A stretch of 64,000 nucleotides of DNA from Blastopirellula marina DSM 3645 (GTDB lineage Bacteria; Planctomycetota; Planctomycetia; Pirellulales; Pirellulaceae), in NCBI RefSeq assembly GCF_000153105.1, contig NZ_CH672376.1, positions 2,563,136 to 2,627,135 on the forward strand. Reading direction: 5' to 3'. The notes under the pieces are model-generated. The model saw only the letters and a list, made by a program, of their open reading frames with translations. It had not been told where the DNA came from and ran no database searches. Shown here piece after piece: positions 20,429 through 30,165 of the stretch (position 1 is the stretch's first letter; every line of letters starts with the position of its first letter). The position numbers and the translations under genes are program-made.

Positions 20429-23400
20429 CTATGCCGAAACGTTGGCGCCGCCGTTGCTCAAAAAGTCAGAGTCTTCACTGCGAATATCTTCGCACAGTTG
20501 ACGCAGAATATTGATCGTGCTGCGAATCTGAGCTTCGGTATGCTCAGAGTTGATAAAGAAACGCAACCGCGCCGCTGATTCGTCGACCGCCGGATAAATG
20601 ATCGGGCGGACGTTGATTCCTTGCAGCAGCATCCGCTGGGCGACGAACATCGTCATCATCGAATCTCCCAGGATCACCGGAACGATCGGCGTCTGCCGAC
20701 TGCGGCCCGTGTCGAGACCCGCTTGGCGCGCGATCCGCAGAAAGACCTCGGCGTTGCGATGCAACGAAGTAACCCGCTGCGGCTCTTCATCGATGATTTT
20801 CAACGCTTCCAAAGCGGCGGCCGCACTCGAGGGAGGCATGCCGACGCTGAAGACAAAACCGGGCGCCGTATACTTTAGGTACTCGACCAGGTCCGCGCTG
20901 CCTGCGATGTAGCCGCCGCAGCTGCCCAGCGCTTTGCTGAGGGTGCCCATCCAGATATCGACATCGCCGGGCGCTACTTTGAAATGCTCGGCGATTCCGC
21001 GGCCGGTGGCGCCCATCGTGCCGATCGAATGCGCTTCGTCGACCATCAACCACGCTTTGTGACGTTTTTTGATCTCAATAAAGCGAGGCAAGTCGGGGAA
21101 ATCCCCTTCCATCCCAAACACCCCTTCGGTGACGATCAAAACGCGACGATAGTCGCGGCGAATATCGTGCAGGATCTGGTCGAGCTCTTCCCAGTCGTTA
21201 TGCGGAAAGGGACGGCGACGTGCGCCGCTCAGGCTGGCGCCTTGGATGATGCTGTTGTGGGCCAACGAGTCATGCAGAACCAAGTCGCCGGTTCGAACCA
21301 GATGTCCGATCGTCGTTTCGTTGGTCGCGTGCCCACCTAGCATCGCGACGGCGGCGTCAACGCCTACCCAGTCGGCGATCGCCTGCTCAAGCTCGGCGTG
21401 AATCGGGCGTTCGCCAGAGACGAGACGACTGGCCGATACGCTGGCGCCATATTGATCGATCGCTTGTTTAGCCGCTTCGCAAACGCGCGGATGTTGAGCC
21501 AGGCCAAGATAGTTGTACCCGGCGAAGTTGACCAATTCGACGCCGTTGATCGTGGTCATATTTCCGGTCGCTTTGTCGTGCGACTGGAAATAAGGATTCG
21601 GCATCCCCAACGCTTCCAACTCATCCGACGTCTGTTTCACCTGACGATATTCAGGCAACGCCGAGAAGCTGTACATTTCGGCCGGGACGTCATCGGCGAT
21701 CGCTTGCGAACGGGGCTCGCCGCCGAGATAGATCTCGACCGCTTCGGATACCTCGCGGCACGTCTTGAGCGTCGGCAGGATGTGATCCGGGAACTGAACG
21801 CCGTAGGCGTCTTCGATCGATGCGATGATTTCCATCCGCTCGAGCGAATCGAGTCCGATCGCCAGCAGATCGGTATTCAGATCCAGGTTCGCCGCGCGTT
21901 CTTTCGCGACGGCATGAATTTTTTCCAGCACTAACTGCGTCGTGCGATCGCGAAGCTCGGGATCGGATACCGCCATCCCTTCGGCGTCGGCCCGAGCCAA
22001 CTCCAACTGTGAGCGACGAAGCCGAACTTTGCGGACTTCATCCAACAGATGGGCCTCGTCCCAACTGACCCAGCGATCGACAATCGACAACACGTTCTGC
22101 AAGAAGTGATTGCGACACGCGTGACGCTGAATCTTGCCGCTTGACGTTTTGGGGATCGAGCCGCGGCGAATCAAAGCGACGCCGTCGACCGCCATTTCAT
22201 GCTCTAACGCGACTTCTTTGCGTATCGCGCTGATAATCTGGCCGTAGTCCTTTTGACGAAGTCGCGGCGCTTCGGCGACAATGACCAAACGGTCCTTGCC
22301 AGCAATTTCAGCGGAAAACGCCGCGGCTGTCGACGTTTCGAGCAGCTCGTGCGAAGCGCAGACCGTCGCTTCGATATCTTGCGGGTACCGATTGACGCCG
22401 CGGACGATGATCAAGTCTTTCAGGCGGCCGGTGACGAATAGCTCGCCGTCCTGCATGAATCCAAGATCGCCGGTTCGCAGATAGGGGCCCGCGTTGGTGT
22501 CGGCCAAATGCGCCCGAAAACAACGCTCCGTATCTTCTTCGTTCCGCCAATAACCTTTCGCAATGCTGGGCCCGGCAATCCAGATTTCGCCCACTTTGTT
22601 GAACGGCTGCTGGAGCATCGTTTCGGGATCGACGATCAAGATCTCTTGGTCAGGCAAGCAGTTTCCACAGCCAACGACCGGCCGTGCGCCCGCTTCGTCC
22701 GGGTCAGCGTCAACGACTAGTCCTTGATCCAGGACGTCGCCGTCGACCGTGCGGATGACGGGAGGACTCTTTTTCAGGCCACCTGAGATGATGAGGGTCG
22801 CTTCGGCCATGCCGTAGCAAGGATAAAACGCTTCGCGCCGGAAACCGCATGGTTCGAACGCTTCGGTAAAGCGGTCGAGCGTTTCAGGCTTGATCGGCTC
22901 GGCGCCGTTAAACGCAAGTTCCCAACTCGAGAGATCGAGCTTGTCTTTTTGTTCCGAGGTGATCTTGTTGACGCACAATTCGTACGCAAAGTTGGGACCG
23001 CCGCTGACGGTCGCCTGACTTTTGGTGATCGCTCGCAGCCAACGAAACGGTTGCTGCAGAAACGCCATCGGAGACATCAGGATTGTCGGCTGCCCGATCT
23101 GCATCGGTTGCAGAACGCCGCCGATTAGCCCCATGTCGTGATACATCGGCAGCCAGAAAACGGCGCGCATACTGCGAGTATGCTCAAAGGCGTACGAGAT
23201 CAACGCCGAGTTGTGCATCATATTGCTGTGCGACAGCATGACCCCTTTGGGGGTTCCGGTCGAGCCGGACGTGTATTGCAAAAAGGCGAGCGTCTTTTCG
23301 TCAATGTCAGGCATGCGCCACTGATCGGCTTCAACCAGCTTTTCGCTGTCGGTCGCTAGCCAATGGATCTTCTTCAAGTGCGGCGTCTCGTCCAGCATCG

Positions 23401-23803
23401 GCGTAACGCGATCGAGCACATCGCTCGTCGTCAGCGCGATTTTCGCTTGGGCGTCATCGGCGATCGCTTGGATCCGCACCATGTTGCGGTTTCGGCGCGG
23501 CGGATAAGCCGGCACCGCCACAGCGCCGGCATACAAGCAAGCGTAAAACGCCGTAATAAACTCCATGCCGGGCGCAAACAACAGCAGCGCACGCTCCCCC
23601 TGCATGTTGAGCGCTTGCATGCGAGCCGCCAGCGCACGAGCCGCTAGATCGAGCTGCGCATAGGTCATCTCGAGTTTCTCGTCTTCCCCGTCAACGAGAT
23701 AGGCATAGGCGACTTGCGGGCCCTGATGTTCCGCCCGATAACGCAGTCGATCAACGACGGTTGATGTCGGGGGGGAAAACGAACCAGCAGATTCGGTTGT
23801 CAC
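20429..23803 (-). CDS. Fatty acyl-AMP ligase / acyl carrier / alpha-oxoamine synthase fusion
   Basis: This encodes 1124 residues in three parts. Residues about 15-590 are an AMP-forming ligase of the fatty acyl-AMP ligase type (P-loop YTSGSTGTPKGVMLSHSN, FYPCYGMAEATL, YLRTGDLGF). Residues about 620-700 are an acyl carrier domain (IGLDSLERMEI, pantetheine Ser). Residues about 730-1105 are a PLP alpha-oxoamine synthase (VMLGGHATN-like, LMVDEAHSIGTMG, catalytic Lys in TLSKALGSCGG). By family logic a fatty acid is adenylated, loaded on the carrier and condensed with an amino acid, with loss of CO2, to an amino ketone, as in serine palmitoyltransferase. GTG 23803 is chosen because GGAGG precedes it. 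No ketoreductase is adjacent. Confidence 0.9.
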   Translation of the reverse strand: MTTESAGSFSPPTSTVVDRLRYRAEHQGPQVAYAYLVDGEDEKLEMTYAQLDLAARALAARMQALNMQGERALLLFAPGMEFITAFYACLYAGAVAVPAYPPRRNRNMVRIQAIADDAQAKIALTTSDVLDRVTPMLDETPHLKKIHWLATDSEKLVEADQWRMPDIDEKTLAFLQYTSGSTGTPKGVMLSHSNMMHNSALISYAFEHTRSMRAVFWLPMYHDMGLIGGVLQPMQIGQPTILMSPMAFLQQPFRWLRAITKSQATVSGGPNFAYELCVNKITSEQKDKLDLSSWELAFNGAEPIKPETLDRFTEAFEPCGFRREAFYPCYGMAEATLIISGGLKKSPPVIRTVDGDVLDQGLVVDADPDEAGARPVVGCGNCLPDQEILIVDPETMLQQPFNKVGEIWIAGPSIAKGYWRNEEDTERCFRAHLADTNAGPYLRTGDLGFMQDGELFVTGRLKDLIIVRGVNRYPQDIEATVCASHELLETSTAAAFSAEIAGKDRLVIVAEAPRLRQKDYGQIISAIRKEVALEHEMAVDGVALIRRGSIPKTSSGKIQRHACRNHFLQNVLSIVDRWVSWDEAHLLDEVRKVRLRRSQLELARADAEGMAVSDPELRDRTTQLVLEKIHAVAKERAANLDLNTDLLAIGLDSLERMEIIASIEDAYGVQFPDHILPTLKTCREVSEAVEIYLGGEPRSQAIADDVPAEMYSFSALPEYRQVKQTSDELEALGMPNPYFQSHDKATGNMTTINGVELVNFAGYNYLGLAQHPRVCEAAKQAIDQYGASVSASRLVSGERPIHAELEQAIADWVGVDAAVAMLGGHATNETTIGHLVRTGDLVLHDSLAHNSIIQGASLSGARRRPFPHNDWEELDQILHDIRRDYRRVLIVTEGVFGMEGDFPDLPRFIEIKKRHKAWLMVDEAHSIGTMGATGRGIAEHFKVAPGDVDIWMGTLSKALGSCGGYIAGSADLVEYLKYTAPGFVFSVGMPPSSAAAALEALKIIDEEPQRVTSLHRNAEVFLRIARQAGLDTGRSRQTPIVPVILGDSMMTMFVAQRMLLQGINVRPIIYPAVDESAARLRFFINSEHTEAQIRSTINILRQLCEDIRSEDSDFLSNGGANVSA

Positions 23804-24106
23804 GCGGCTATCGCCTCCGCAGTAAGGGAAAGACCAAATACCGGGCGCCGTCGGGAGTTGGCGCACAGCGGGAGATATAGAGTTAGATCGGCGTACTGGT
23901 GTTAACTGTTTTAACCAAGCTGCGCAACCTTACGGCCAGGTAGCTTGGGTAGATTGAACCGGCATTTTATGGGATTTCTCGTCGCTGTCGAAGAAGCGTG
24001 CAGCGGAATTGAAGCCGGAAAGTTCATTTAACCGGAAGAAATTCGAGAATCCTGCTCGGATTGCGCCGAGAGGCCTAGTTTGCCGGAGCGTTAAGCTCGA
24101 ATCAGG

Positions 24107-24729: not shown

Positions 24730-24760
24730 AGTTGTCACACCTTCGCTGCAGGCGTGTCCA
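24730..24760 (+). promoter_or_regulatory. ECF-type promoter of the sigma gene
   Basis: AGTTGTCACA-N14-GTGTCCA, ending 52 bp before the start codon. The same two boxes with the same 14-bp spacing precede the SnoaL-like gene downstream (25712-25742). TGTCACA resembles the -35 element reported for ECF41-group sigma factors. Autoregulation by the encoded sigma factor is the simplest reading. Confidence 0.7.
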
Positions 24761-24812
24761 AGATGCAGAAACGCCTTTCAAGTCGTCATTTTCAGTCTCC
24801 TGGAGCCGCGCC

Positions 24813-25697
24813 ATGTTCAACCCGTTTAGCGAGAGGACCGAGGACGACGCATCCGATGCAGTTCTCGTCGAGCAAGCCAAGAATGGCGATCGTGCAGCGC
24901 TGGAGCAGCTGGTTTTGCGGCATCAGGCATGGATTTACAACATCGCTGTCCGCATGGTCTTTCACCCTCAAGATGCGGAGGAAGTGACCCAGGAAGTCCT
25001 GATCAAAGTCATCACCAAGCTCAGCACATTTAAGGGAGAGAGCAAGTTTCGCACTTGGTTGTATCGCATTGCCGCTAATCATGTGCTGAACATGAAACGC
25101 CGGCGTGCTGAAACCGGCGTAACGACGTTTGCCGAGTACGGAGCGGCGATTCGCAGTACGCCGGATGCAGACTTGCCTGATTCCAACAGCGTACCCGTGG
25201 CGCTGCCGATTCTGGTCGAGGAGGCCAAGAATAGTTGCACCATGGGAATGCTGCTGTGCCTTGATCGTCGACAACGGTTGATCTTCACTCTGGGCGAGAT
25301 CCTGGGGGTCACCGACACCGTCGGCGGCCAAGTCTTGGAGATAACCGCCGACAACTTCCGGCAATCACTAGCGCGTGCTCGCCGCGACCTGCACCGTTTC
25401 CTGAACAACCAGTGCGGGCTCGTGAACAAGACCAACCCCTGCCGTTGTCCCAAAAAGACGCGCGGCTTTATCGAGCATGGCCATGTGGATCCGCACCGGC
25501 TGCTGTTTGTGCCGGAGCGTGTCGAACGGGTGCGGGATGTTGCGGGTGAGACGGTCAGGGGAATCGAGGATGTGGTCGAGCGACAGCACGCAGACCTCTA
25601 TCGAGAACACCCGTTCCTTCGGCAAGCGGACGAGATTCACTGGCTGCGCCGAATGCTCCAGCGCGAGGAGATCCGCGGGGCGCTGCATTTGCCGTGA
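24813..25697 (+). CDS. ECF-type RNA polymerase sigma factor with Cys-containing tail
   Basis: This encodes 294 residues. Region 2 covers about residues 15-90 (ALEQLVLRHQAWIYNIAVRM, DAEEVTQEVLIKVITKL, FRTWLYRIAANHVLNMKRR). Region 4 covers about residues 140-195 (LCLDRRQRLIFTLGEILG, DNFRQSLARARRDLHRFL). A 95-residue tail follows, starting with NQCGLVNKTNPCRCPKKTRGF, whose Cys-x-Cys group could bind metal. That tail is not part of a minimal ECF factor and may be regulatory. No anti-sigma gene is adjacent; instead a SnoaL-like gene follows after 99 bp with its own copy of the sigma promoter motif. ATG 24813 follows TGGAG; the upstream open frame overlaps the promoter and is not used. Confidence 0.9.
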   Translation: MFNPFSERTEDDASDAVLVEQAKNGDRAALEQLVLRHQAWIYNIAVRMVFHPQDAEEVTQEVLIKVITKLSTFKGESKFRTWLYRIAANHVLNMKRRRAETGVTTFAEYGAAIRSTPDADLPDSNSVPVALPILVEEAKNSCTMGMLLCLDRRQRLIFTLGEILGVTDTVGGQVLEITADNFRQSLARARRDLHRFLNNQCGLVNKTNPCRCPKKTRGFIEHGHVDPHRLLFVPERVERVRDVAGETVRGIEDVVERQHADLYREHPFLRQADEIHWLRRMLQREEIRGALHLP

Positions 25698-25711
25698 AAA
25701 TTTTGAACCGG

Positions 25712-25742
25712 AGTTGTCACAGTCGGCCCCCGATAGTGTCCA
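25712..25742 (+). promoter_or_regulatory. ECF-type promoter of the SnoaL-like gene
   Basis: AGTTGTCACA-N14-GTGTCCA, identical in both boxes and in spacing to the motif before the sigma gene, and placed 54 bp before the start codon. The intervening 14 bp differ between the two copies, so this is motif conservation and not a simple duplication. Confidence 0.7.
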
Positions 25743-25796
25743 TGAAATAAAAGGAGCAAAGGCTCCCAGTCTTACAAACACAGGAAGGGATAAATC

Positions 25797-26123
25797 ATGA
25801 CGCTCCATCTGCCAGAACCGGTTACGGCCTATTTCCAAGCGGACAAAGCCGACAGTGAAACCGTTGCACGTTGCTTCACGGACGACGCCGTCGTGAAAGA
25901 TGAAGGCCACGCTTACCACGGTCGCGTCGCGATCAAAAAGTGGAAGGAAGAGACGTCGGCGAAGTACGTCTACACATGCGAGCCGCTGAAATGCGAGTCG
26001 CAGGATGGCAAAGTTGTCGTCACTTGCCGCCTAGACGGCAACTTTCCGGGCAGTCCGGCCGACCTGCGGTTCTTCTTCGAGCTAACGGGCGAGCAGATTG
26101 CGTCGTTGGAAATTATCCCCTAA
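25797..26123 (+). CDS. NTF2/SnoaL-like protein
   Basis: This encodes 108 residues of the nuclear transport factor 2-like fold: PVTAYFQADKADSETVARCFTDDAVVKDEGHAYHGRVAIKKW is the helix-strand pattern of SnoaL-like domains, followed by beta strands ending in LEIIP. Such domains bind small hydrophobic ligands or act as isomerases or hydrolases. ATG 25797 follows AGGAAGGGA. In ECF41-type sigma factors a SnoaL-like domain is fused to the sigma C-terminus and tunes its activity; here the domain is a separate protein under the same promoter motif. A sensing role is inferred. Confidence 0.88.
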   Translation: MTLHLPEPVTAYFQADKADSETVARCFTDDAVVKDEGHAYHGRVAIKKWKEETSAKYVYTCEPLKCESQDGKVVVTCRLDGNFPGSPADLRFFFELTGEQIASLEIIP

Positions 26124-26147: not shown

Positions 26148-26741
26148 CTAACGCACCCATCCCACCCGCGTCATGGGCCATGCAATCAACCAAGCACGGC
26201 CCATGATCCGATGGGCAGGGACGGGACCGTTGAATCGGCTATCGTCGGAATCTTTCAGGTCGTCCCCCAGCACATAGTAACCATCGCCGCACGGCACAGG
26301 CTTGCCGTCGACTAGATTGCCAAATCTCAAATACTTCACGTCGAGCGACGGTGGGCATTCCATCGGTTGGCCATCAATAAGCAATTCACCATGGCGAACC
26401 ATTTGAACGCTCTCGCCCGGCAGCCCGACGACACGTTTCATTCGCTTGTCGCCGGTATCGCTAATGAACGTGATTACCTCCCAGCGGCGAGGGCTACGAA
26501 ACCAGCAACTCACTTTTTCGGTGATCACGCGGTCACCGTTATCTGGATTGGTTCCCATCAGCGTGGGTGACATTGAGGGAGAGATGACGACGGAAATATC
26601 CATCGTCAGCCAGTAGAAAGCGACGAGCGCCCCGAACACAGCGAGCCCGCGCTCGATCCAGCGCAGGCTCTGGCGAAAGACCGAACCACAACGGCTGCGA
26701 ACCGTCGCGCTACTGTTGTTGGGCGTCGCAGGATTTGGCAT
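26148..26741 (-). CDS. lepB: Signal peptidase I
   Basis: This encodes 197 residues. One transmembrane helix (about residues 32-48) is followed by the S26 catalytic serine in SPSMSPT (Ser56) and the catalytic lysine in RMKRVVGLPGE (Lys102). The C-terminal box GYYVLGDDLKDSDDSRFNGPV is the conserved GDN-x-x-S-x-D-S-R region, with Asp at the Asn position. It cleaves signal peptides at the outer face of the membrane. The ATG start overlaps the end of the upstream small membrane protein gene by 32 bp, so the two are coupled and belong to the radical SAM operon. It may be specialised and not the housekeeping enzyme. Confidence 0.92.
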   Translation of the reverse strand: MPNPATPNNSSATVRSRCGSVFRQSLRWIERGLAVFGALVAFYWLTMDISVVISPSMSPTLMGTNPDNGDRVITEKVSCWFRSPRRWEVITFISDTGDKRMKRVVGLPGESVQMVRHGELLIDGQPMECPPSLDVKYLRFGNLVDGKPVPCGDGYYVLGDDLKDSDDSRFNGPVPAHRIMGRAWLIAWPMTRVGWVR

Positions 26742-26985
26742 CGCGCACGGCTTGTTCGATTTGTAAGTTTCGCTCTTCCCACTGTAATTTGGTCGACCGA
26801 GTGGCTCCAATAGTCGGGGTCGTCAAGCCAGCGAGGAGCACGAACGCTCCGGCGCCCGCCACGATGACTGTCACAGCATTCAGGCCTCGATTACTGGCCG
26901 ATAAAGGCGGCGCAGTGACAGGACTGGGCGGTACATCCGCCAGCGACTCATTCAGCGACTCATCGGATTGGGGGCGTTCGTCCAT
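26710..26985 (-). CDS. Small membrane protein in radical SAM operon
   Basis: This encodes 91 residues: an acidic and Ser/Pro-rich N-terminal part (about residues 1-35), one transmembrane helix (AVTVIVAGAGAFVLLAGLTTP) and a charged, helical tail with one Cys (QIEQAVRDAKSCDAQQQ). ATG 26985 follows AAGGTG. It begins 8 bp after the radical SAM gene ends and overlaps lepB. I do not recognise it. It might be an accessory anchor or a substrate of the neighbouring enzymes, but it is not Cys-rich and lacks an obvious leader/core organisation. Confidence 0.72.
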   Translation of the reverse strand: MDERPQSDESLNESLADVPPSPVTAPPLSASNRGLNAVTVIVAGAGAFVLLAGLTTPTIGATRSTKLQWEERNLQIEQAVRDAKSCDAQQQ

Positions 26986-26993
26986 AATGCACC

Positions 26994-28061
26994 TTAGGTA
27001 GAGGCGAGAACTCGCGACTCAAGAACGCGGATCGTTTCTCGGTAACAAGCTTGATCCAACAAACAGAGCAATCCATCGGGTCGGTTCACGTCGCCCGTCC
27101 GGATGAAATTACTGCATCGACAAGTTTTGGTGCTGCAAAGTGATTGCAGTGCGCAAGGGGCGCATTCAGCCGGCGTCATGCCTGGAAGCGGAGCGTGGTC
27201 AAGGAAATCATCCCCATCCAACGCATGACCGGAGAGACGCATCGGATTACCTGGCTCGTCGGCGCCGACGAGGCGCTCACAAGGAAACAAATTTCCCGCA
27301 GGCGTAACCGCGATCTCGGCGTGGCCAAACCCGCAGCGTGCTGTCTCGGTCAGCGGAATACCCGCGGCTTGCGCCCCCTTTTCATCGAACCAACTGACAC
27401 TGCACTCCGGCAGCCGCTCGCCCCAAAAGTCGGCGGCGCGGCGGATGGCGTCGTTCAAGCGTTCGCCATCGGCCCTGGTCCAGGTTGCCCAGAGATTGAG
27501 TGACGGGTTAAATCGCCGTACGCCGAGCGTGTAAAGGAACTCCATTCCATCAGGCAAAGACGCAACACTGTCTGGCTGAACCACCATGACGATGCGGAAT
27601 TCTTTGCCCGCATCGATCAGACGAGCCATCGTATTTTGGACGCGAAACGAACTTGGCAGGCCATCGACCGTGACCCGATGACCATCATGAGCGCTCGGCA
27701 AGCCATCATGGCTAATCGCCAATTCGAGCTGCGGCAGCGTCATTACCGACCATGCGGCGGCGGACTCAATCGTGCCGTTGGTCGTCATGCTTAACGCCAG
27801 GCGGACATCCTGCTCATCGGCCGCGGATCGAGCATAACGCACAAGATCCAAGATCAATTCGGCTTCGATCAGAGGCTCGCCGCCAAAGAACGACAGTTCA
27901 AGCGTCCCATCGCGGCGCACGGACCGGATCGCCCGGTCGATCGCCTTGCGCCCGGTTTCTGGCGACATCGGTCGTCGGATTTTCTCGCCGGTGTAGCAAT
28001 AAGTACAACGGAGATTGCACGCATGGTTGACGACGAGCGTCAGTCCAAATCTTGCGTGCAT
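26994..28061 (-). CDS. Radical SAM/SPASM-type peptide- or protein-modifying enzyme
   Basis: This encodes 355 residues. The radical SAM cluster CNLRCTYC lies at residues 15-22 (CxxxCxxC), and SFFGGEPL (SAM-contact GGEP) is near residue 60. The C-terminal part holds a SPASM-like cysteine set: CGFGHAEIAVTPAGNLFPCERL, then CAPCALQSLCSTKTCRC and a last CLLDQAC, suitable for auxiliary Fe-S clusters. Such enzymes modify ribosomal peptides or mature sulfatases; the substrate is not assigned here. ATG 28061 follows AGGAG. It is the first gene of a minus-strand operon with the small membrane protein and lepB, a layout that suggests a modified, exported substrate. Confidence 0.9.
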   Translation of the reverse strand: MHARFGLTLVVNHACNLRCTYCYTGEKIRRPMSPETGRKAIDRAIRSVRRDGTLELSFFGGEPLIEAELILDLVRYARSAADEQDVRLALSMTTNGTIESAAAWSVMTLPQLELAISHDGLPSAHDGHRVTVDGLPSSFRVQNTMARLIDAGKEFRIVMVVQPDSVASLPDGMEFLYTLGVRRFNPSLNLWATWTRADGERLNDAIRRAADFWGERLPECSVSWFDEKGAQAAGIPLTETARCGFGHAEIAVTPAGNLFPCERLVGADEPGNPMRLSGHALDGDDFLDHAPLPGMTPAECAPCALQSLCSTKTCRCSNFIRTGDVNRPDGLLCLLDQACYRETIRVLESRVLAST

Positions 28062-29606: not shown

Positions 29607-29646
29607 AACTATTTCCTAGTTGTCGGACTCTCCATCGGAAACAATC

Positions 29647-30165
29647 ATGTCTATATTACAAAAAATACAAGCGACAAATAACGCACAGAGAATGTACACG
29701 GTTCGCGGTGATCTGAGTGAAGAGAGTCCGGGCCAATTTCGCGTCACTTTCACGAAGGACGCATACGCCCTCATTGCTATGAACAATATCCACCCGGATT
29801 TCATTCTCCCATTGGCCCGTGGTGAAGATCCGAGCGGTCGGAATAGCAAATTCGCGTTTAAGTTACTTGAGGGTGCGGAGGTCGAGCTCCATGTTGATAC
29901 TTTGACGCACAAATTTAAGGTCGCTCAAAAGGAGCGAGCGTTCTATATCGACGAGCATGACCTGTCCGTGGTTTACTTGGACTCACTTAAGCTAAGAGAC
30001 TGCCCTTTCGAATGTCGGAAATACGTGACAGTCGTTGACGTGTACTGTTGCGGAAACGGTTTCACAAAGGCCGGTTACGGCTACGTCGGGTGCGCAGACA
30101 TGTGGTGCGATGAAAGCCGATGTTGTCCCGACAGAGTTCGAGGGCACAAATGTGGTTGCGCTTAG
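29647..30165 (+). CDS. Protein with cysteine-rich C-terminal tail
   Basis: This encodes 172 residues. The first 118 contain no Cys and look like a beta-rich domain (GQFRVTFTKDAYALIAM, FAFKLLEGAEVELHVD). The last 54 residues hold ten cysteines, at positions 119, 123, 134, 135, 149, 154, 159, 160, 169 and 171, among many Gly, Tyr and Asp, ending GHKCGCA. There is no signal peptide. The gene is more A+T-rich than its neighbours and stands alone, which suggests recent acquisition. The tail could be a disulfide or metal-binding module, or a core peptide modified by the radical SAM enzyme 1.6 kb away. I recognise no family. ATG 29647 follows GGAAAC; the upstream TTG is less likely. Confidence 0.7.
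   Translation: MSILQKIQATNNAQRMYTVRGDLSEESPGQFRVTFTKDAYALIAMNNIHPDFILPLARGEDPSGRNSKFAFKLLEGAEVELHVDTLTHKFKVAQKERAFYIDEHDLSVVYLDSLKLRDCPFECRKYVTVVDVYCCGNGFTKAGYGYVGCADMWCDESRCCPDRVRGHKCGCA

Follow-up and report, generated by a model that had tools for sequence, protein, structure and literature searches.

The ECF sigma factor encoded in the window (the whole 64,000-nucleotide stretch of DNA that was analysed) rather likely forms a one-component, self-activating module, which comprises its own gene and an exchangeable next gene and reads its signal through cysteines. Within this reading, activation by the sigma factor of its own gene and of one adjacent output gene is the best supported prediction from sequence. 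Comparison of related loci revealed that a promoter-like motif, its spacing and its position, as well as five cysteines of the sigma factor, are conserved, and that the output gene has been exchanged. The features concerned are as follows:

24730..24760, + strand: promoter-like motif 1, before the sigma gene (-35 TGTCACA, N14, -10 GTGTCCA)
24813..25697, + strand: ECF sigma factor of 294 aa, sigma2 and sigma4 plus a C-terminal extension of ~95 aa (from Pfam, the family alignment and model m98612f48a90e)
25236..25259, + strand: C142-x6-C149 at the start of sigma4, codons 142-149, invariant in 103/103 distinct homologues
25353..25382, + strand: presumed -35 recognition helix N-F-R-Q-x-L-x-R-A-R, codons 181-190, conserved in the family
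25413..25448, + strand: cysteine tail C201-x8-C210-x-C212, codons 201-212, invariant in 103/103 distinct homologues
25712..25742, + strand: promoter-like motif 2, before the SnoaL gene, boxes as in motif 1
25797..26123, + strand: free SnoaL/NTF2-fold protein of 108 aa, probable target gene (Pfam SnoaL_2, 5.5e-07)

A promoter-like motif shared by two adjacent genes

The two motif copies share the sequence AGTTGTCACA-N14-GTGTCCA with exact boxes (10 bp and 7 bp identical), and the spacers between the boxes, both of 14 bp, differ (CCTTCGCTGCAGGC vs GTCGGCCCCCGATA). From the box end to the ATG there are 52 bp for the sigma gene (ATG at 24813, favoured over 24678 since homologues share an N-P-F start) and 54 bp for the SnoaL gene (ATG at 25797). 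A previous reading of this DNA from its letters alone (the sequence-only reading) had described the same boxes, the same spacing, both distances and the differing spacers, and all of these are exact. With up to three mismatches allowed, two motif matches are present in the window vs 0.04 expected, a number reached by one of 100 shuffles. The genome-wide search that the sequence-only reading had proposed found the core TGTCACA-N14-GTGTC at two sites in the 6.66-Mb source genome, both at the sigma/SnoaL pair already noted, with none in reversed controls, and widening the spacer to 12-18 returned the same two sites and no others. A wider regulon in the source genome (G000) was considered and rejected, as TGTCACA-N14-GTGTCYA has no 1-mismatch site there and its sites at exactly two mismatches (10) do not exceed those of the reversed controls (18 at two or fewer mismatches).

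An origin of the motif by chance, or by recent duplication of one promoter fragment, would account for the identity of the boxes; however, the spacers are unlike and the motif pair is kept across genera, and this explanation can practically be dismissed.

Conservation of the motif across relatives

Protein searches of 199 genomes of the same family located the sigma gene in 22 (E <= 1e-25), and among 392 genomes of the phylum it was present in 17 (E <= 1e-30), of which 13 are close and four distant; to these were added 80 relatives, the best of 195 that emerged when named genomes were scanned. According to their record names, these best 80 belong to Planctomycetes, Acidobacteria, Rokubacteria, Nitrospinota, Proteobacteria, Bacteroidetes, Ignavibacteria and others, and the closest homologues of the source sigma factor among them are planctomycetes. 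After removal of 10 duplicates (including L044, on the same contig as L009), the 118 sigma loci were reduced to 108 distinct ones: 58 planctomycete-type loci, 46 other-phylum loci, most of which were taken from metagenome-assembled genomes and could carry a wrong assignment, and four distant loci (L035-L038), which were counted apart. One locus with a frame disruption (L092) was left out of the protein counts and kept in the motif counts.

The motif was scored as TGTCACA-N15-TGTC over 11 positions and was called present when at least nine matched within 150 bp upstream of the sigma gene. On this scale it was present in 53/58 planctomycete-type loci (44 perfect) and in 26/42 loci of other phyla (15 perfect); related loci are not independent in such counts, and Fisher values are therefore no more than indicative. 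Random control windows from the same loci gave 16/931 (none perfect) and 9/720 (two perfect), in a set that also samples loci with real motifs further upstream; another control draw gave 17/959 and 5/722, none perfect. The sequence-only reading had made the presence of the motif before orthologous pairs one of its tests, and the motif is indeed retained at those 53 loci. Among the 21 loci without an upstream motif, 12 have a match of at least 10/11 within 3 kb upstream (reversed controls, 0/21), in three the spacer is longer by one base, and six remain without it, three of which have less than 600 bp of upstream sequence. Upstream of the four distant sigma relatives (L035-L038), the motif was found in 0/4. 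Behind the sigma gene, it occurs in 56/57 planctomycete-type loci and in 6/46 other-phylum loci, and the lone planctomycete-type miss (L025) has a motif further off, at +115. The loci yield the consensus YTGTCACA-N14-GTGTCYAA(G), in which the distance to TGTC hardly varies, with N15 in 65 cases, N16 in three and N8 in one (one duplicate included).

Of the 199 family genomes, 13/22 with the sigma gene contain the strict motif vs 1/177 without it, and 16/17 strict sites are situated at sigma loci, including one that is 1.3 kb upstream of the sigma gene (G025). No motif site at 0-1 mismatches was found in two genomes of the same genus that are without the sigma gene. One genome (G092) contains one strict and six 1-mismatch sites, yet no close sigma; its strict site falls within an opposite-strand ORF of 247 aa and was set aside as a chance match. 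This pattern marks the motif as promoter-like and conserved, and autoregulation of the sigma factor through it appears well supported; the autoregulation suggested earlier is probable, as the motif upstream of the sigma gene is conserved across phyla.

Some genomes show variations on this arrangement. Three sigma paralogues are present in G053 (L010, L023, L024), each with both motif copies, two before a SnoaL gene and one before an SDR gene. In addition, an exported-looking protein of 255-370 aa is encoded upstream of the sigma gene in L014/L055 and L020/L063 (the L055 copy is without a Pfam match), with the motif near or before its start, perfect in L020 and 10/11 in L014.

Exchange of the gene behind the sigma factor

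At the 58 planctomycete-type loci, the gene behind the second motif encodes an SDR oxidoreductase in 40 and a SnoaL/NTF2 protein in 17, and the remaining locus reaches the contig end. When these labels were placed on the sigma tree (which includes the duplicate L044), three changes were needed vs ~14 for shuffled labels. The simplest reading is that the SDR gene came first and that the SnoaL gene would have been gained once and lost twice (L003; L009). Both of these loci belong to the SnoaL clade and to genomes that are 99% complete (G137 and G163, respectively), in which the SnoaL gene was not found at E <= 1e-5 and the sigma gene and motifs are kept.

Within ~3 kb on either side, where the sequence allows, the 46 other-phylum loci contain genes for NTF2-like (12), carboxymuconolactone decarboxylase (CMD; 6), MFS (6) and SRPBCC (2) proteins, the MFS search having used a seed partly in the wrong frame (four stops), with Pfam confirming MFS for L085 only. 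Examples of NTF2-like, CMD, glyoxalase, SRPBCC, SDR and MFS neighbours were confirmed by Pfam. In these phyla the gene behind the sigma gene is mostly without its own motif (40/46), and it either forms an operon with the sigma gene or is not a target. Directly behind the sigma gene in 11 loci, mostly of Ignavibacteria, a secreted, beta-helix-like protein was recognised by eye; for the copy in L096, Pfam sees the secretion tail only.

The SnoaL-like protein of the source genome was described in the sequence-only reading as a free protein, which Pfam and a confident NTF2-type model (pLDDT 93.6) bear out. The best Foldseek match of this model is SMa1630 of Sinorhizobium meliloti (PDB 4u13; 38% identity, TM 0.90), likewise a free-standing SnoaL-fold protein, of 109 aa, for which a limited literature search found no functional study. 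SigG1 (7qh5) and SigJ (5xe7) are not among the 50 matches listed for the model, which excludes nothing. In a profile comparison of the SnoaL protein with the SnoaL extension of ECF41, hhalign returned a probability of 0.5% and an E value of 0.11 from shallow alignments (9 vs 5 sequences).

The sequence-only reading had further proposed a split ligand-sensing system. On this hypothesis, the sigma factor is a split ECF41, and the free SnoaL protein acts as its ligand sensor or anti-sigma partner, like the fused domain of ECF41. The SnoaL gene does adjoin the sigma gene in all nine close copies, from eight sigma-bearing genomes, NTF2-like neighbours recur in 12/46 other-phylum loci, and the ECF41-type -35 box is common to both systems. 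However, an SDR gene stands in the place of the SnoaL gene behind the motif in 40/58 loci, and the two partners also occur apart: G137 and G163 have the sigma gene and motif without the SnoaL gene, whereas in G114 a SnoaL orthologue (64% identical) is present and a search for the sigma gene at E <= 1e-30 gave none. Three of the NTF2-like neighbours (L074, L091, L113) begin with signal-like segments and by eye would be exported, while L083 and L106 do not; the profile comparison gave no significant similarity to the ECF41 extension, and the sigma factor falls in a clade separate from ECF41. A split sensor is accordingly unlikely. The sequence-only reading had also proposed collecting homologues of the sigma factor, and of the two elements expected beside it the motif is conserved and the SnoaL gene is not, being present in 17/58 planctomycete-type loci. 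As the neighbour gene varies (SDR, SnoaL and others) behind the same motif, these genes are better regarded as output genes than as a sensor partner. Thus, the SnoaL protein is most likely a target of the sigma factor rather than half of its sensor, and it may hold an auxiliary role within the SnoaL clade.

The SnoaL orthologue of G114 (L159, 1045-1827) is divergent from a gene for an HxlR-type regulator, without sigma gene or motif. In G097, the sigma gene is accompanied by an SDR gene, and a distant SnoaL (37%) lies elsewhere in the genome. Downstream of the SDR or SnoaL gene there is often a gene for a protein of ~130-200 aa (21 loci, namely L003, L005, L006 and 18 others, duplicates included); the one example submitted to Pfam (L065) is without a match.

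Relationship to ECF41

TIGR02957 was taken to represent ECF41, an assignment backed by WLPEP in its matches: by eye, eight of the ten retrieved (L143-L150) carry WLPEP, L151 carries WLPSP and L152 carries neither. For the source sigma factor, NCBIfam returned general ECF models, and among the 25 matches listed only the superfamily TIGR02937 was above the cut-off.

Wecke 2012 (PMC3426412) describes ECF41 sigma factors (Ecf41Bli, Ecf41Rsp, SigJ) as having a fused extension, a WLPEP motif in the sigma2-sigma4 linker, a promoter of the form TGTCACA-n16+-1-CGTC, whose TGTCACA is called ECF41-specific, and adjacent COE target genes (carboxymuconolactone decarboxylase, oxidoreductase, epimerase). The present sigma factor resembles ECF41 in the -35 TGTCACA, the ECF-type -10, the C-terminal extension, the lack of an anti-sigma neighbour and the very small regulon made up of its own gene and an adjacent gene, which in ECF41 is of the COE type. 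The sequence-only reading had associated TGTCACA with ECF41, and the box is present in both promoters and matches the published ECF41 -35. COE-type neighbours likewise recur, with SDR genes in 40/58 planctomycete-type loci and CMD genes near the sigma gene in 6/46 others, whereas the SnoaL gene of the source genome is non-COE.

In other respects the two differ. Pfam recognises no SnoaL domain fused to the source sigma factor, which has a cysteine tail instead, and WLPEP is absent from it. In a 31-row tree that included eight of the ten TIGR02957 matches, the family (98/98) and ECF41 (100/99) formed separate groups. The family promoter has a -10 of GTGTCYAA with 15 bp to TGTC, as against 16+-1 to CGTC in the ECF41 description; the 15 bp lie within the published ECF41 spacer range, and the -10 box reads TGTC, not CGTC.

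In the presumed recognition helix, R183 is present in 103/103 sigma homologues and Q184 in 100/103. At the corresponding positions, nine TIGR02957-type proteins have C-R-Q (4), C-R-K (3) or V-K-T (2), and five other planctomycete ECFs have V-R-S in 5/5. It is plausible that the -35 code is shared with ECF41 through the R-Q pair. No TGTCAC was found within 300 bp upstream of the ECF41-type L143-L152 or of the other ECFs L136-L142, and two weaker matches lie downstream, at L148 and L151.

The description of TGTCACA as ECF41-specific raises the alternative that the motif belongs to another regulator or to a genuine ECF41 sigma factor that this genome also encodes. This is highly improbable, however, as no TIGR02957 (ECF41-like) match was found in G000 at E <= 1e-30 and as the presence of the motif tracks the sigma gene across the 199 genomes.

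Cysteines of the sigma factor

Pfam recognised Sigma70_r2 in the sigma factor (3.4e-17) and, weakly and below the cut-off, Sigma70_r4_2 (0.046). All five cysteines (C142, C149, C201, C210 and C212) are present in 103/103 distinct homologues; for C149, the invariance among L039-L118 is partly built in, as this residue lies inside one of the two seed peptides. The loci from whole-genome protein searches with no cysteine-bearing seed (L001-L034) have all five in 34/34, so that the cysteine-containing tail noted from the sequence alone is both present and invariant. The five cysteines are also kept in relatives from Leptospira and Runella (46% and 37% identity) and persist in the distant L035 and L037, while L036 is without the first and L038 is cut. 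Two of these five-cysteine homologues (L164, L165) are located on plasmids of Leptospira interrogans and Runella slithyformis, and 20 plasmid records match the sigma factor (Leptospira 14, Enterococcus 5, Runella 1); in L164, a 9-of-11 motif precedes the gene upstream of the sigma gene.

The sigma model (m98612f48a90e; pLDDT 77) comprises a core of the ECF type and an extension that is in part disordered, with low confidence for residues 234-266. Its best match is SigW as bound to RsiW (Z 16.6, with 152 residues aligned at 1.7 A), and SigG1 (7qh5) and SigJ (5xe7) rank 7 (E 5.9e-05) and 30 (E 0.018), respectively. A compact SigW-like arrangement would suit an off state; it may also reflect modelling bias.

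The cysteine layout recalls CorE. CorE and CorE2 were assigned to ECF44, now ECF238 (PMC3107203, PMC8999054), and in CorE a cysteine-rich tail is reported to control activity, with cysteines that sense metal (PMC3107203). Only a part of the new ECF238 has the linker CxC, and ECF287 and ECF288 are described as having cysteine-rich extensions. As in CorE, the present family has cysteines behind sigma4 that end in C-x-C, cysteines between sigma2 and sigma4 and no linked anti-sigma gene. The patterns nevertheless differ: the tail is C-x2-C-x7-C-x-C, invariant in CorE-type proteins, vs C-x8-C-x-C here, and the linker has CxC in CorE vs C142-x6-C149 in the source sigma factor. No copper genes were recognised by eye among the neighbours of the five-cysteine sigma factors, and no anti-sigma gene was recognised by eye beside the sigma gene at the loci. 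This CorE-like layout together with the lack of a linked anti-sigma suggests an on-board sensor, and by analogy the sensor of the sigma factor is probably its own five invariant cysteines, operating with CorE-like logic.

The invariant cysteines may, however, be structural (zinc) only. In that case the module would still regulate itself, and its activity would be set by an unlinked regulator such as an anti-sigma factor, a kinase or a protease. The invariance of the cysteines would be expected of a structural zinc site no less than of a switch, and the compact monomer model resembles SigW in complex with RsiW, with the bias noted above. On the other hand, no partner gene conserved beside the sigma gene across phyla was seen, and the positions of the cysteines, near the linker and behind sigma4, resemble those in CorE, where cysteines are reported to sense metal. 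An unlinked regulator is rather unlikely on balance.

Proposed module and its significance

In the on-board sensor model that we favour, the sigma factor would bind TGTCACA (-35) and GTGTCYAA (-10) at its own gene, giving positive feedback, and would read the same motif at the next gene, with no further targets or very few. The gene that follows would be an exchangeable output, probably an enzyme for the detoxification or conversion of small molecules: SnoaL in the source genome, SDR in most planctomycete-type loci, and NTF2-like, CMD, glyoxalase or MFS elsewhere. The two cysteines at the start of sigma4 and the three just behind the recognition helix could form a metal or thiol switch, which would release an autoinhibited state of the sigma factor in response to thiol-reactive or electrophilic compounds, or to metal. 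The nature of the output genes points to reactive small molecules as the source of stress, although the secreted beta-helix-like neighbour in 11 loci does not fit an output of detoxification. Taken with all of its parts, the picture of a widespread family separate from ECF41, with a converged TGTCACA code (R-Q), a one-gene regulon, a five-cysteine switch for thiol-reactive compounds or metal and interchangeable SnoaL/SDR outputs, is possible and should be regarded as tentative.

For a large sigma family that crosses phyla, these findings supply a precise promoter motif, a regulon predicted to be tiny and a five-residue sensor hypothesis. They also suggest that a separate family uses the TGTCACA box ascribed specifically to ECF41, and predictions of ECF promoters from TGTCACA therefore need care. 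A combination of one sigma factor, one motif and an exchangeable output could serve as a simple orthogonal expression switch. Within a partial coverage of the literature, no paper was recognised as describing the five-cysteine family, which may already have been given a group number in the 2021 ECF re-classification.

Other gene groups in the window

Two further groups of genes near the sigma locus were observed by eye. At 26148-28061 (- strand) and 29620-30165 (+ strand), a signal peptidase-like gene, a 91-aa ORF and a gene for a radical-SAM-like protein are arranged in a row, near which a 181-aa protein with a cysteine-rich C-terminus is encoded; this is possibly a peptide-maturation cluster. 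At 20429-23866 (- strand), a 1145-aa ORF appears to be a fusion of an acyl-AMP ligase, a carrier protein and an AONS-type enzyme.
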